This document shows positions 337 to 5,379 of a stretch of DNA of 5,379 bases, piece after piece. The notes beneath the pieces are model-generated. The model was not told the DNA's origin, ran no database searches, and was given only the letters and a program-made list of their open reading frames with translations. Source of the stretch: Candidatus Hydrogenedentes bacterium CG07_land_8_20_14_0_80_42_17 (GTDB lineage Bacteria > UBA8481); NCBI GenBank assembly GCA_002780065.1, contig PEWQ01000129.1, positions 1-5,379 of the forward strand, written 5' to 3'. A program made the position numbers and the translations under genes. The stretch's first letter is position 1; each line of letters starts with the position of its first letter.

Positions 337-576
337 TTATTTTCGCCCTCGAGTTCGATCGAGAAGCTTAGTCTGCAAATCCTGAATCTTTGCGATACGC
401 CGTTCCTTTTCCGCCTCATCCAGCTCGATTGTGATCTTCAACACCGAGCCTTCTTTTGTTCCTGCCGGCAAGAAATTTCCGGATAAATGCAGTTTTGGCC
501 CTTCGTCGAAAAGTACGACATAAGTTGATTCTTCTATCTCATCCACCACTGCATAATGAATTTTTTCCGCTCCCAT
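337..576 (-). CDS. DUF3006 family small protein (79 aa)
   Basis: This is a 79-residue acidic protein. The N-terminal half looks like short beta strands (residues 7-48, AVVDEIEESTYVVLFDEG then the LPAGTKEGSVL turn). The C-terminal half is a highly charged helix (about residues 52-79, EAEKERRIAKIQDLQTKLL). The D-x-I-E-x-x-x-x-V-V-L-x-D-E start, the LP-x-G-x-K-E-G-S-V-L motif and the charged helix match the DUF3006 pattern. No catalytic residues, signal peptide or membrane segment are visible, and its function is unknown. From memory, members of this family often sit beside ComEC-like metallo-hydrolase genes. Here the partner is recJ. The ATG at 576 shares its A with the recJ stop codon (TAATG) and has AGGAGG 5 nt upstream. 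A longer frame starting at 645 would lie inside recJ and lacks this support. It is the last gene of the operon. Confidence 0.82.
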   Translation of the reverse strand: MGAEKIHYAVVDEIEESTYVVLFDEGPKLHLSGNFLPAGTKEGSVLKITIELDEAEKERRIAKIQDLQTKLLDRTRGRK

Positions 577-2804
577 TACATCCTCCTTTTTACAGCCGGT
601 TTTATATCCTCGACAAGACATTGCAAAGAAGTCTTGCCAGCCCACTCGTTCTTTTCGAGCTTAAAAGTGATGTCGATTTTTTCTCCCTGCTTGGGTATGA
701 AATCTAGTTCTGCATTCCACATTACGGCTTCGATTTTTGGTGAAGAAGATATGACAATTTTAAGGTGCTTGCCGTTGTCGCCCATTCTTGTCGCTTCTTT
801 CACCTCAACTCCGCGACTGCAAAATACAGGCTGTTCATTTCCATTGCCCGTAGGCTCCAATCTGAGAAGATCTTCCAGTAATTTCAAATTCAGTTCGTCA
901 ATTGCTACATCGGCATCGATATATAATCTCGGCATAAGTAATTCTTCAGGAACTTCCGACCTTACGAGCTCGTTGAATTCTTTTCTGAACTTTTCCAGAT
1001 TAATTCGCTTCAACGAAACTCCTGCCGCTGAACTGTGCCCTCCGAATTTTTCCAAAAGATGAGAGAGCTTTTCCAGCGCTTTTACTATATCGAATTCAGG
1101 TATGGTTCGAGAAGTGCCGGAGAGAATTTCGTTTCCATCGTCTATGAACAAAACAGTTGGTTTTCCAACGTAATGAAGAATTCTGGTTGCAACAAGCCCT
1201 GTAACTCCATGCTCGATATCCTTTACCGAAAGCACTACTGCGGCATCACGTTCAGGAACAAAAACTTTTTCCAGTTCGAGAAGCGCCGCCGCTTCGTTCG
1301 TTCTGGTTCGCGTTTTGCGCTCGGAATTCATTGCCGACAACTCGCCTACTAGCTCTTTAGCCCGCTTCTCATCTTTGCATAAAAGCAGTTCGACACCCAT
1401 CGATGCTTTTCCCATTCTGCCGGCTGCATTCAATAACGGTGCAAGCGTCCATCCGACATCTTTTGCCGTAATCTTTTTTGATCCTATTAAACCTTCGCGC
1501 AGTGCGGCAACACCCGGCCTTGCACTTTTTGTCAGAGCATCGAGTCCTTTCTTGACAAGAATTCTGTTTTCGGATTTAAGAGGAACGAGATCGGCTAGAG
1601 TAGAAAGTGCGACAAGATCGAGATTGTTTTTTAGAAAAAACTGAAGCTTTGCATTGCGCCGGGATAATAGACGCTTATAGAGATCGCGCACTGCTTCAAC
1701 ATCAGACATTGCTCTATGCGCGTCTTCATGAGCTATTTTTAATGATTTAGTAAGAGCGGATAGTTTATGGTCTGCCGCAGGAAACTGCATCCTCGACTCA
1801 CTAAGAGTGTCTATCGAATCATTACGGATTGTCTTTCCGCAGCATTTTTTTGCGGCCGCGGTGAGGAATTTAATATCGAAAGAAACATTGTGCCCTGCAA
1901 GAATTGAATCTCCTATGAAATCTAAAAACTTCGGAATCACTTCTGAAGCAGGAGGAGAATTCTTGAGCATCTCTTCGGTCAAACCGTGAATCTCAGTCAG
2001 ACTTGCAGGTATTGAGCATTCCGGTTTAATAAGAGAATGAAACCTATCGAGCTCTACTCCGTTTCTGGTCTTCATTCCTGCGATTTCGATAATTTCGTCG
2101 AGCCCTGCGCTCATTCCTGTAGTCTCGACATCGAAGAATACAATTTCCTTTCCAAAAAATTCAGGATCCATTCCAAGAAGCAGAGCTTGTGCAAATTTGA
2201 ATGCGACTCCGCATGCCGAAAGCTCAGAAAATGGATATTTACTATCTGCTCTTTTTGCATCTACGATAGCCCATGCCCGCGGCAGCTCTTTAGATGGTTC
2301 ATGATGATCGAGCACTATCACATCCATTCCTTTTGCCCGAGCGGATTCGACTCCGTCGATCTCTTTTATTCCGCAGTCGCATGTTAAAAGAAGTGACGCG
2401 GAAAAATCCGCGGCAGAATCCACCGCCGCTTTTGAAAGACCATATCCGTCCTCAGGTCTTGGTACGCTCCAGCTAACTTTAAGACCGATGAGCTCCATTA
2501 AATTTACGAGCAGTGTTGTAGATGTAATTCCGTCGGTATCGCGGTCGCCGGCGATGAATACCTTTTCTTTTCGCTTTAGAGCCATTTGAACCCGCTGGAC
2601 AGCCTTCTCCATGTCTGGAAGCAAAAATGGATTTTCGAGAGAGTCAATATTTATATCGAGAAATTCCATTGCTTCGAAAGAATTTGTAAACCCTCGTGCG
2701 GAAAGCATTCTTGCAATTGGCTTTGACAGATTCAGTTCCGATGCGATCTGCAATGCTACCGAAGGATCGTATTCTCTTACGATCCATTTTTTACTTAGTT
2801 TCAA
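576..2804 (-). CDS. recJ: RecJ single-strand DNA exonuclease with an inserted DnaQ-like exonuclease domain
   Basis: RecJ degrades single-stranded DNA 5'-3' in recombination and repair. This protein has 742 residues; ordinary RecJ has roughly 560-580. The DHH core shows GDRDTDG (86-92), TCDCG (141-145), DHH (166-168) and YPFSELSACGVAF (190-202). After an insertion the core resumes with DLVALSTLADLVPL (396-409; D405 is the expected metal ligand) and NAAGRMG (459-465). The DHHA1 motif is GGHSSAAG (588-595), and the RecJ OB-fold motif is LEPTGNGNEQPVF (649-661). Residues 219-384 are a DEDDh exonuclease. The start is TTG, supported by the KxW...RE N-terminus typical of the family; it overlaps the upstream stop as TTGA, with only a weak GGAAGAG site. 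Translation is probably coupled and modest. Odd points are R88 in motif I and T652 where F is usual. The RecJ assignment is firm; the dual activity is inferred. Confidence 0.95.
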   Translation of the reverse strand: MKLSKKWIVREYDPSVALQIASELNLSKPIARMLSARGFTNSFEAMEFLDINIDSLENPFLLPDMEKAVQRVQMALKRKEKVFIAGDRDTDGITSTTLLVNLMELIGLKVSWSVPRPEDGYGLSKAAVDSAADFSASLLLTCDCGIKEIDGVESARAKGMDVIVLDHHEPSKELPRAWAIVDAKRADSKYPFSELSACGVAFKFAQALLLGMDPEFFGKEIVFFDVETTGMSAGLDEIIEIAGMKTRNGVELDRFHSLIKPECSIPASLTEIHGLTEEMLKNSPPASEVIPKFLDFIGDSILAGHNVSFDIKFLTAAAKKCCGKTIRNDSIDTLSESRMQFPAADHKLSALTKSLKIAHEDAHRAMSDVEAVRDLYKRLLSRRNAKLQFFLKNNLDLVALSTLADLVPLKSENRILVKKGLDALTKSARPGVAALREGLIGSKKITAKDVGWTLAPLLNAAGRMGKASMGVELLLCKDEKRAKELVGELSAMNSERKTRTRTNEAAALLELEKVFVPERDAAVVLSVKDIEHGVTGLVATRILHYVGKPTVLFIDDGNEILSGTSRTIPEFDIVKALEKLSHLLEKFGGHSSAAGVSLKRINLEKFRKEFNELVRSEVPEELLMPRLYIDADVAIDELNLKLLEDLLRLEPTGNGNEQPVFCSRGVEVKEATRMGDNGKHLKIVISSSPKIEAVMWNAELDFIPKQGEKIDITFKLEKNEWAGKTSLQCLVEDIKPAVKRRM
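1653..2150 (-). other. DEDDh (DnaQ/epsilon-like) 3'-5' exonuclease domain embedded in RecJ
   Basis: This covers about residues 219-384 of the RecJ protein, in frame and without stops. Exo I is FFDVETTG with D225 and E227. Exo II is GHNVSFD with D310. Exo III is HRAMSD with H363 and D368, the H-x4-D spacing of the DEDDh class. PASLTEIHGLTEEML (266-280) is also typical of the epsilon/PolC/DinG exonuclease group. All five catalytic residues are present, so the domain looks active. DnaQ-like domains remove nucleotides from 3' ends using two metal ions. The domain sits after the helix AFKFAQALLL (201-210) and before RecJ resumes near residue 386, so it probably projects from a surface loop. The boundaries are approximate. 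Confidence 0.93.
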
Positions 2805-4108
2805 GATATCTCTTCCAGTATAAGCGGCATCGTCTGCGCAGGCGCGTCTGAAATTTTGATTGAGGCTTTCATACGCTTCAATGATTCTTGAAATTTGTTT
2901 TCGTCATTGTAATGAATTCTGATAATCGGAGCGCCTTTCGAAAGTTTTGCGCCGGGCTTGACTAAAAACTCCGCACCGACTGCCGGATCGATAGGATCGG
3001 AGCTTTTCTGCCTTCCGCCTCCGAGAACAACAATTGCCATTCCAACTGCATAAGTGTCGATTGAATGAAAATTTCCATCATTCCATGCCGTGAGTTCAAA
3101 CGTTTTTTTTGCTTTCGGCAATCTTGAAATATCATCGCAGACTTTTGGATCTCCGCTCTGCAGTTCAATCATCTTTCTGAATCTTTCTAAACCTGTTCCA
3201 TCATTTATTCTTCTTTGGATTTCTTTTCGGCCGTCTTCAAGTTTATTTTTAATTCCGGCAAGTTGCAGCATTCTCGCTCCGAATTCGATTACTAGAGTCC
3301 TCAAATCTTCGGGGCCTTTGCCTTTGAGAATATCGATCGACTCTTCGATTTCGAGCGCGTTGCCTGCTTTAACTCCGAGCGGTTGATCCATATTCGTAAT
3401 TAAAGCTGAAGCATTGCGGTTAGAGTTTTTACATATTGCAACCATGAGTTTTGCCAGAGCGCGAGCGTCGTCTCTTTCGCGCATGAAGGCGCCGGACCCG
3501 GTCTTCACATCGAAGACGAGCGATTTAGGACCTGCCGCAAACTTTTTCGAGAGAATCGAAGCCGCTATCAAATCCATTGTGTCGACTGTCGCTGTTACGT
3601 CGCGCATTGCGTAAAGTTTTTTATCTGCTGGAGCTATATCTGCAGTTTGACCTACGATGGCGCATCCTGCTTCCTTCACTGTTTTCAAAAACTCTTCGTC
3701 GCTTAATGTGACTTTGAATCCTGGAATAGATTCGAGCTTGTCAAGGGTTCCGCCTGTGTGACCAAGCCCTCGTCCGGACATCATAGGAACAAAACCACCT
3801 GAGGCCGCAACAAGGGGAGCTAGAGGCAAAGAGACCTTGTCGCCGATTCCTCCTGTTGAATGCTTGTCGACCGTCGGACCGGGAATGCCGGACAAATTCA
3901 TGCTTTTTCCGGATGAGGTCATCGCTTGAGTAAAAATTGCTGTCTCTTCATCGTCGAGCTTTCTGAAAAATATTGCCATTACAAATGCCGACATTTGATA
4001 ATCAGGAAGTGTGCCTTTTGTGAAGGACGAGACCATGAATTCAATTTCTTCTCGAGTCAGCTTTCCTCCGTCTCTCTTCTTTTTTATTATTTCATACGGA
4101 ACAAGCAT
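2801..4108 (-). CDS. deoA: Thymidine / pyrimidine-nucleoside phosphorylase
   Basis: This enzyme splits pyrimidine (deoxy)nucleosides with phosphate into base and (deoxy)ribose-1-phosphate, a cytosolic salvage step. At 435 aa it has the normal family length. It carries the phosphate-loop motif KHSTGGIGD (82-90) and the family signature SGRGLGHTGGTLDKLE (111-126). H83, R169, S184 and K188 match the substrate-binding residues of E. coli DeoA at a constant offset of two. The C-terminal domain is present through residue 435. At the position before MSGRG this protein has M109, as in thymidine phosphorylases; broader pyrimidine-nucleoside phosphorylases have lysine there. This favours thymidine/deoxyuridine, though only moderately. 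The ATG at 4108 has GGAGGTGA 4 nt upstream. The gene follows the purine phosphorylase by 33 nt and overlaps recJ by 4 nt. It could also be named pdp. Confidence 0.93.
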   Translation of the reverse strand: MLVPYEIIKKKRDGGKLTREEIEFMVSSFTKGTLPDYQMSAFVMAIFFRKLDDEETAIFTQAMTSSGKSMNLSGIPGPTVDKHSTGGIGDKVSLPLAPLVAASGGFVPMMSGRGLGHTGGTLDKLESIPGFKVTLSDEEFLKTVKEAGCAIVGQTADIAPADKKLYAMRDVTATVDTMDLIAASILSKKFAAGPKSLVFDVKTGSGAFMRERDDARALAKLMVAICKNSNRNASALITNMDQPLGVKAGNALEIEESIDILKGKGPEDLRTLVIEFGARMLQLAGIKNKLEDGRKEIQRRINDGTGLERFRKMIELQSGDPKVCDDISRLPKAKKTFELTAWNDGNFHSIDTYAVGMAIVVLGGGRQKSSDPIDPAVGAEFLVKPGAKLSKGAPIIRIHYNDENKFQESLKRMKASIKISDAPAQTMPLILEEIS

Positions 4109-4141: not shown

Positions 4142-4963
4142 TTACATTCTTTTAAGTATTTCCAAAATGAATTTCCTGAAAACGGTTTTTACTCTTTCAG
4201 TGGTCTCGATCACTTCTTCATGGCTTAGCGGCTGCGGCAGAATACCCGCCGCCATATTTGTGATGCAGGTGATTCCAAGAATTTGCATTCCTGAATGCCG
4301 AGCGACAATTACTTCAGGAACAGTCGACATACCTGCCGCGTCACCTCCGCAAGTTTGATACATCTTTATCTCTGCAGAAGTTTCGTAACATGGTCCCATC
4401 GATGCAACATACGTTCCTTCACGCAAGGTGATGCCTTGCTCTTTTGAAACAGTGCGGGCTAGATCAATGTATTCTCGAGTGTAAGCCATTGACATGTCGG
4501 GAAAACGAGGACCTTGTTCATCGATATTTCCGCCGCGAAGAGGATTGACTCCGAGAAAATTAATATGATCCGTAATTAGCATAAGATCGCCTACGCTGAA
4601 GGAAGTGTTAATTCCGCCCGCCGCATTAGTGACGATCATCGATTCGCATCCTAACTCGCGCATGACCCGAACAGGAAATGTGACTTGTTTCAGATCATAG
4701 CCTTCATAGTAATGAAAACGTCCGGACATTACGGCAACATTTTTACCGGCGAGCCTGCCTATGTGGAGATTGCCGGCATGTCCCGCTACTGTTGATTTTG
4801 CAAAATGAGGAATCTCTTCGTAAGGAATAGCTATGCCTTCAACCTCTTTCGCTATGCCGCCAAGTCCTGATCCAAGGATCATTGCTACTTCAGGTTTTAA
4901 AGAAGCTTTTTCTTGTATTGCATTTACTGCTTCTTTGATTTCTATTATTTCGTTATTGCACAT
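4142..4963 (-). CDS. punA: Purine nucleoside phosphorylase, class I (trimeric type)
   Basis: This enzyme converts purine nucleosides and phosphate to free base and (deoxy)ribose-1-phosphate. The chosen protein has 273 residues, the usual length for the trimeric class. Visible motifs are GSGLGG (31-36), GHAGNLHIG (61-69), GRFHYYEGY (81-89), TNAAGG (112-117), GPCYETSAE (190-198), AAGMSTVPE (209-217) and TNMAAG (235-240). By alignment with human PNP, S32, H62, R82, H84 and Y86 handle phosphate and sugar, E194, M212 and N236 hold the purine, and H248 matches H257. The E194/N236 pair points to 6-oxopurines such as inosine and guanosine. A longer frame exists from a TTG at 5032, but it would begin upstream of the likely -10 box, while ATG 4963 has GGAGG 7 nt upstream. 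It is the first gene of the four-gene operon. Confidence 0.94.
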   Translation of the reverse strand: MCNNEIIEIKEAVNAIQEKASLKPEVAMILGSGLGGIAKEVEGIAIPYEEIPHFAKSTVAGHAGNLHIGRLAGKNVAVMSGRFHYYEGYDLKQVTFPVRVMRELGCESMIVTNAAGGINTSFSVGDLMLITDHINFLGVNPLRGGNIDEQGPRFPDMSMAYTREYIDLARTVSKEQGITLREGTYVASMGPCYETSAEIKMYQTCGGDAAGMSTVPEVIVARHSGMQILGITCITNMAAGILPQPLSHEEVIETTERVKTVFRKFILEILKRM

Positions 4964-4970
4964 ATTTTTT

Positions 4971-5060: not shown

Positions 5061-5379
5061 ATGTCTTTAAATGTGGTTATATTTTCCGGCGGCGTCGGCG
5101 GCTCCAAACTTGTTCAAGGGTTTTATTTGAATGAGTCTTTCGAATCGCTTATCGTGATCGGAAATACTGGAGATGATGTGGAGATGCACGGACTGTGGAT
5201 CTCTCCTGATCTTGATATTGTCATGTACACTCTTGCTGAATTAGTCGATGAAATGAAGGGCTGGGGCCGCTCTGACGAGACTTTTGATTGTATGGCGGCT
5301 ATGGGAAAACTCGGTGAGAAGACTTGGTTCAATCTTGGCGATAAAGATTTGGCAGTTCATATCATTCGGACAAAGATGA
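5061..5379 (+). CDS. cofD: 2-phospho-L-lactate transferase CofD, 5' part only
   Basis: The first 106 codons are present and the frame is still open at the right edge; the family is usually about 300 residues. CofD transfers a phospholactyl-type group from its GDP-activated donor to Fo (deazaflavin), forming the F420 backbone. Visible motifs are the N-terminal nucleotide-binding loop FSGGVGGSKLVQG (8-20), GNTGDD (34-39), GLWISPDLD (44-52), MYTLAEL (55-61), GWG (67-69) and WFNLGDKDLAVHIIRT (89-104), in the order expected for the family. ATG 5061 is the best start, because an in-frame stop lies at 5046-5048. No Shine-Dalgarno site precedes it. The gene is divergent from the nucleoside operon across a 97-bp gap. 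F420 genes such as cofE or cofG/H could lie to the right, but none is visible here. Confidence 0.93.
   Translation, partial: MSLNVVIFSGGVGGSKLVQGFYLNESFESLIVIGNTGDDVEMHGLWISPDLDIVMYTLAELVDEMKGWGRSDETFDCMAAMGKLGEKTWFNLGDKDLAVHIIRTKM

Follow-up and report, generated by a model that had tools for sequence, protein, structure and literature searches.

A RecJ-family protein with a predicted DEDDh exonuclease domain nested in its catalytic core, encoded beside nucleoside phosphorylase genes

The stretch of DNA analysed here (the window) is one complete contig (G000:C40) of 5.4 kb from a 2.39-Mb metagenome-assembled genome that is 87% complete. It carries a cluster of four genes that all run in one direction, in the order punA, pdp, recJ, DUF3006, and the product of recJ holds a second nuclease domain within its own catalytic core. 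The features of the window are as follows.

576..2804, minus strand: whole recJ frame, 742 aa from a TTG start, a RecJ with the DEDDh exonuclease nested in it (505 bits for TIGR00644, cut-off 397)
2166..2804, minus strand: RecJ N-terminal part with DHH domain (residues 1-213), including D87/D89/D91, D143 and D166-H167-H168
1641..2165, minus strand: inserted DEDDh (DnaQ/PolC-type) exonuclease domain, residues 214-388 (structural match at residues 218-385)
2124..2132, minus strand: Exo I motif D225-x-E227 (DVE of FFDVETTG)
1875..1877, minus strand: Exo II aspartate D310
1701..1718, minus strand: Exo III, H363 to D368 (HRAMSD)
576..1640, minus strand: RecJ C-terminal part, with the end of the DHH domain and motif IV D405, DHHA1 at 523-615 (GGH 588-590) and OB at 629-733
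1590..1592, minus strand: RecJ motif IV aspartate D405
2801..4108, minus strand: pyrimidine-nucleoside phosphorylase (pdp/deoA type), 435 aa, with a 4-nt overlap with recJ
4142..4966, minus strand: purine-nucleoside phosphorylase (punA), 274 aa, at the head of the cluster
337..576, minus strand: DUF3006 protein, probable ATG at 576 (start picked from the sequence)
5061-5378, plus strand: first part of a CofD-like gene of the F420 biosynthesis family, which points away from the cluster and is truncated where the contig stops

The genes around recJ are tightly packed. Its start overlaps the stop of the upstream pdp gene by 4 nt (TTGA), and its stop overlaps the likely start of the DUF3006 gene by 1 nt (TAATG). 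As to anti-phage defence or a CRISPR-associated DEDDh protein, PADLOC models match the DEDDh part only; the neighbours are metabolic genes, and the contig is just 5.4 kb long. At the contig end, positions 1-221 form a tandem array of a 14-bp unit (CACTTTCCAATTTG) with 15.8 copies and 88% matches.

Outside the insert, the protein has the composition of a complete bacterial RecJ. Pfam finds DHH (residues 81-206), RNase_T (222-372), DHHA1 (523-615) and RecJ_OB (629-733) in that order, all above their cut-offs, and the whole protein passes the NCBIfam RecJ family model. The RecJ OB domain (PF17768) scores 96.7 bits, and the RecJ residues D87, D89, D91, D143, D166-H167-H168, D405 and the GGH at 588-590 are invariant in five homologues at 28-53% identity. 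An AlphaFold2 model of the window protein, with 57 sequences as input (the window protein and fetched related loci), reached a pLDDT of 96 and a pTM of 0.94. VIA-align placed its core on Staphylococcus aureus RecJ (8y30) with a Z score of 41.7 and an rmsd of 2.5 Å over 555 residues. The initial annotation had named disruption of the DHH fold as an outcome that would count against its proposal; in the model the fold is undisrupted, since both core and insert match solved structures. The RecJ site of the window protein is predicted to be a 5'-3' single-strand DNA exonuclease.

The insert comprises 175 aa (window 2165-1641) that follow the DHH motif and precede the final metal-ligand aspartate. 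The initial annotation had proposed a DEDDh domain nested in RecJ at 1653-2150, which corresponds to residues 219-384 and is borne out by the structural match. The 237 residues that it counted from H168 to D405 also stand, with both motifs present, and its figure of about 60 for an ordinary RecJ follows from the profile-based spacer between the N- and C-terminal RecJ parts, which is 175 residues here versus -4 to +12 in ordinary RecJs. A few ordinary RecJs have longer spacers that give no DEDDh match (L091, 19; L067, 33; L060, 51; L046, 52; L066, 120). The last of these, a Saccharibacteria RecJ (L066 4626-6653), has a 120-aa low-complexity spacer at the same place that is unrelated to the DEDDh insert. 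In the window protein, the insert matches RNase_T (PF00929) with 121.9 bits against a cut-off of 24 (E = 5e-35), and residues 218-385 superpose on the exonucleases of DinG (9ii8; Z 26.1, rmsd 1.3 Å) and PolC (9qrn; Z 24.2) by VIA-align. D225, E227, D310, H363 and D368 are all present, as had been claimed, and are invariant in the same five homologues; the residue sets of both sites are thus intact, with every expected metal ligand in place and conserved. Intact inserts give dN/dS of about 0.1-0.3 in the pairs with measurable dS, many pairs being saturated, and in pairs of that kind both domains are under purifying selection. The DEDDh site is predicted to be a 3'-5' exonuclease.

Proteins with the same domain arrangement do exist elsewhere, as the initial annotation had thought they might, and they could be mapped on core-only trees. 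Among 78 broadly sampled genomes, full-length matches occurred in G001, which belongs to the same order, and in G030, G018 and G072. A search of 386 genomes returned ten with a match across the insert and its flanks at E < 1e-100, from five or six families out of about 300, together with weaker matches spanning the insert in three genomes of family f155. The architecture is found in all three genomes of the G030 phylum and in 6 of 8 genomes of family f73, in the G072 phylum. Other named relatives come from termite-gut Treponema/Spirochaetaceae (L035-L037), Ozemobacteraceae (L039) and Elusimicrobia, where the insert is intact in L033 and not in L034 or L038. We take the G018 phylum to be Spirochaetota, partly from its position beside L037 in the tree, and the names Treponema-, Brachyspira- and Borrelia-like used for groups of relatives are likewise probable assignments. 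An assembly chimaera or frame artefact might be suspected in a window that is a whole 5.4-kb contig of a metagenome-assembled genome and ends in a tandem repeat, but the idea is barely conceivable, since the architecture recurs at 53% identity in another, independent genome of the same order and also in several further phyla. Homologues in other phyla rule out chimaera and chance alike; for chance, the E value of the RNase_T match leads to the same conclusion. Judged by their sequences, insert-bearing RecJs are a family spread over several phyla, many of whose spirochaete members have a catalytically dead insert.

The fate of the two sites differs among the relatives. Our motif table covers 58 long-spacer loci, some of them repeat fetches of one gene: 30 keep all five DEDDh residues, 27 have lost at least two, and one (L066) is the unrelated case described above. 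RecJ residues are unchanged across the table apart from L154 and L126, the latter truncated at the end of its contig. Most sampled spirochaete RecJs fall in the group whose insert is present without its catalytic residues. Profile comparison by hhalign identifies the dead Treponema-like inserts (probability 91, E 9e-7) and the dead Brachyspira-like inserts (probability 88, E 3e-6) as homologues of intact ones, with controls below 1. For the inserts of f96, f81, L038, L039 and L182, the same kind of comparison gave no homology to DEDDh, and only the position is common. Some spirochaetes have eroded inserts of 35-72 aa. In a whole-protein model of L037, no DnaQ chain was among the 50 structural matches listed, all of which were DHH-fold proteins.

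These dead inserts invite the reading that the insert is mainly a structural element or nucleic-acid-binding platform, with catalysis optional or vestigial, as in most spirochaete members. About 27 RecJs retain an insert of 100-176 aa without the catalytic residues, the Treponema- and Brachyspira-type ones are still recognisable homologues, and the Brachyspira-type ones show dN/dS of 0.10-0.15 where dS is measurable. We nevertheless consider this reading improbable for the family, because the 30 fetched loci that keep all five residues come from about six phylum-level groups, and because three loci (L154, L184 and L185) have kept the DEDDh residues while the RecJ ones are gone. L184 (G110; 1859-4012) and L185 (G098; 1805-3271) lie directly after pdp and have lost the RecJ motifs, and Pfam finds RNase_T and no DHH in them; their genomes each also hold an ordinary RecJ. 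L154 (G233; 1081-2694) lies between punA and pdp and has neither a DHH nor a GGH motif, with all five DEDDh residues kept; the search of its genome (89% complete) showed no further RecJ. The sampled loci keep both sites, the RecJ site only or the DEDDh site only. None of the sampled insert-bearing loci lacks both, which is partly a matter of ascertainment, such genes being hard to find.

The insert is apparently of one origin. In a core-only tree of 146 rows, insert presence needs two changes, and a well-supported branch sets 92 of the 93 ordinary RecJs to one side. The exception, L008, is an ordinary RecJ that groups with insert-bearing Elusimicrobia. A more careful tree of 43 rows supports the ordinary clade without L008 at 100/99 and the grouping of L008 with L033 and L034 at 98/95. 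In both L008 and L034, moreover, the genes run recJ, then an MTAP-like phosphorylase, then a PfkB-like kinase (identified by inspection), and this shared order together with the tree position makes loss of the insert the simplest reading for L008. An AU test does not reject a tree in which the insert-bearing rows are held together without L008 (p 0.13), a result that is not proof of that arrangement. Repeated independent fusion is disfavoured by the 92/93 split, by the support for the ordinary clade and by the AU result. The interleaving of intact and dead inserts in the tree takes 5-6 changes, which makes more than one loss of catalysis probable. Deep branches are weak, and because the trees have no root, gain of the insert and early presence with later loss fit them alike.

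Insert-bearing and ordinary recJ loci differ in their neighbours. Of the former, 27 of 53 have a phosphorylase gene on the same strand no more than 1.5 kb away; of the latter, 1 of 93 does, namely L008, which nests in the insert clade. Fisher's test gives p 1e-13 uncorrected for kinship, which overstates the case because loci within one phylum are not independent. The contrast itself is conservative, since flanks of only 0.7-1.5 kb at many loci lower the number of phosphorylases found while the ordinary loci mostly have 5 kb flanks; the 26 of 53 insert-bearing loci with no phosphorylase in the examined stretch include many with short flanks. The order is punA-pdp-recJ in G001, pdp-recJ-DUF3006-MTAP/PNP-adenosine deaminase (add)-cytidine deaminase (cdd) in G030, punA-recJ-pdp in L033, and adenine deaminase-phosphopentomutase-like (by sequence inspection)-punA-recJ-pdp in G072. 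Loci with a dead insert also adjoin pdp, so the association marks the subfamily and not an active insert. DUF3006 directly follows recJ in the window (337-576, minus strand) and in G030 (L238 6421-6714), which belong to different phyla. In G001, a second DHH-family protein of 466 aa is encoded downstream of recJ (L237 9708-11105). In several families of spirochaetes, the genes beside recJ are instead pyrB and one resembling DNA polymerase III delta'. In intact-insert spirochaetes, the delta'-like gene lies beside recJ or one gene off (L240 4602-5783; L241 10687-11886; L242 4640-5848; L243 9149-10303).

RecJ is normally a repair enzyme. The main rival to a role in DNA turnover is accordingly a RecJ of repair or recombination with an added 3'-5' activity, which would trim single-stranded tails, 5' as well as 3', during recombination or mismatch repair, and whose phosphorylase neighbours would be incidental, the relic of an old gene order. 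We regard this as possible. The window protein has the full RecJ domain set including the OB domain, most of the searched genomes that encode an insert-bearing protein gave no other RecJ match, and the pyrB and delta'-like genes of the spirochaete families would suit such a role. In Borrelia burgdorferi, disruption of recJ affects infectivity and switching, which the authors discuss in terms of recombination and mismatch repair (PMC2779866). Yet phosphorylases adjoin insert-bearing recJ in several phyla and in differing orders, more than an inert gene order would give and far from the single case among 93 ordinary loci. The loci whose RecJ site is dead and whose DEDDh site is intact, moreover, stay in the cluster, two of them in genomes that hold a separate ordinary RecJ.

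The insert might also stand in for DnaQ, with RecJ as the carrier of a 3'-5' exonuclease for proofreading or a replication-linked task. Among 149 spirochaete genomes, another RNase_T domain is present in 3 of the 18 with an intact DEDDh insert and in 86 of the 131 others; put the other way, 15 of 18 and 45 of 131 have none, and in f19, f107 and f111 the delta'-like clamp-loader gene adjoins recJ or is one gene off. The pattern is a tendency and not strict complementarity with a stand-alone DnaQ, because those 45 genomes have neither, and related genomes are not independent. The genome of the window, furthermore, encodes a second RNase_T protein of PolC size, and G001 likewise has a PolC-sized frame with its own exonuclease domain. 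We therefore find a DnaQ substitute very improbable. Replacement of exonuclease VII was rejected, as XseA is present in every searched genome with an intact insert. Among genomes with dead inserts, several that are small or Brachyspira-like gave no XseA match above the cut-off.

We propose a model in which a DnaQ/PolC-type DEDDh exonuclease entered, apparently once, the loop that joins the helix following the DHH motif to the helix bearing the last metal-ligand aspartate, and in which the window protein has kept both sites intact. On single-stranded DNA, mononucleotides would most likely be released from 5' ends by the RecJ site and from 3' ends by the DEDDh site, and one protein could then work inwards from both ends of a strand and yield dNMPs. 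The position of the gene in the punA-pdp-recJ-DUF3006 cluster suggests that this DNA turnover would feed nucleoside salvage, perhaps besides repair. The two-ended exonuclease is the most economical reading of two intact sites, their conservation, the reciprocal losses in relatives and the gene neighbourhood. Against the salvage part, phosphorylases act on nucleosides and not on nucleotides, and a neighbourhood does not prove a pathway; dephosphorylation of the dNMPs before salvage would need a nucleotidase. For a two-nuclease RecJ that degrades single strands from both ends in the service of DNA turnover and nucleoside salvage, with activities, polarity, substrate and role all predicted, we put the probability at about one half. 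More tentatively, we speculate that the whole subfamily could serve DNA catabolism rather than, or besides, repair, as a two-ended enzyme of single origin that is encoded with phosphorylases and deaminases and can lose either site if the other stays.

If the model is correct, the protein is a naturally occurring case of one polypeptide in which a 5'-3' and a 3'-5' single-strand exonuclease site have a fixed arrangement. Its relatives make up a natural series (both sites, RecJ only, DEDDh only, insert eroded, insert apparently lost) in which the contribution of each site can be probed, as can the reason why a dead exonuclease domain stays under selection. Through its phosphorylase neighbours, a nuclease known from textbooks for repair would be linked to nucleoside salvage. 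Since TIGR00644 labels these proteins plain RecJ, annotation can easily miss the second nuclease or what is left of it in spirochaetes.

The domain families, the folds and the likely chemistry are already known. For the nested arrangement, the family that it defines and the gene cluster, a search of open-access papers (subscription journals and preprints lay outside it) turned up neither a characterised protein nor a published description, in keeping with the novelty suspected at the outset. In the excerpts available from the genetic study of B. burgdorferi BB0254 RecJ (PMC2779866), the insert is not mentioned. Sampled spirochaete RecJs have their insert at the same place as the window protein, with the DEDDh residues gone in most. 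Cdc45 and archaeal RecJ/GAN are RecJ-fold proteins like the window protein, and their insertions are not known to be nucleases. Bacterial RecJ (TIGR00644; S. aureus 8y30, D. radiodurans 5f55, T. thermophilus 2zxo) has the same DHH, DHHA1 and OB domains, all the motifs and the same fold (Z 36-42), and the window protein differs from it in the 175-aa DEDDh domain between motifs III and IV, where ordinary RecJs have -4 to 12 residues. The PolC-type and DnaQ/epsilon exonucleases (PF00929; 9qrn, 2gui) match the insert in fold and in the five catalytic residues, with Z about 24, but lie in or beside a polymerase, whereas the domain in the window protein is nested in a second nuclease. The closest solved fold to the insert (Z 26) is that of S. 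aureus SaDinG, likewise a DEDDh domain joined to a DNA enzyme, whose N-terminal DEDDh domain has demonstrated 3'-5' activity (PMC12345164). DinG, however, is an end-to-end fusion with a helicase, whereas in the window protein the DEDDh domain is inserted into the core of another exonuclease.
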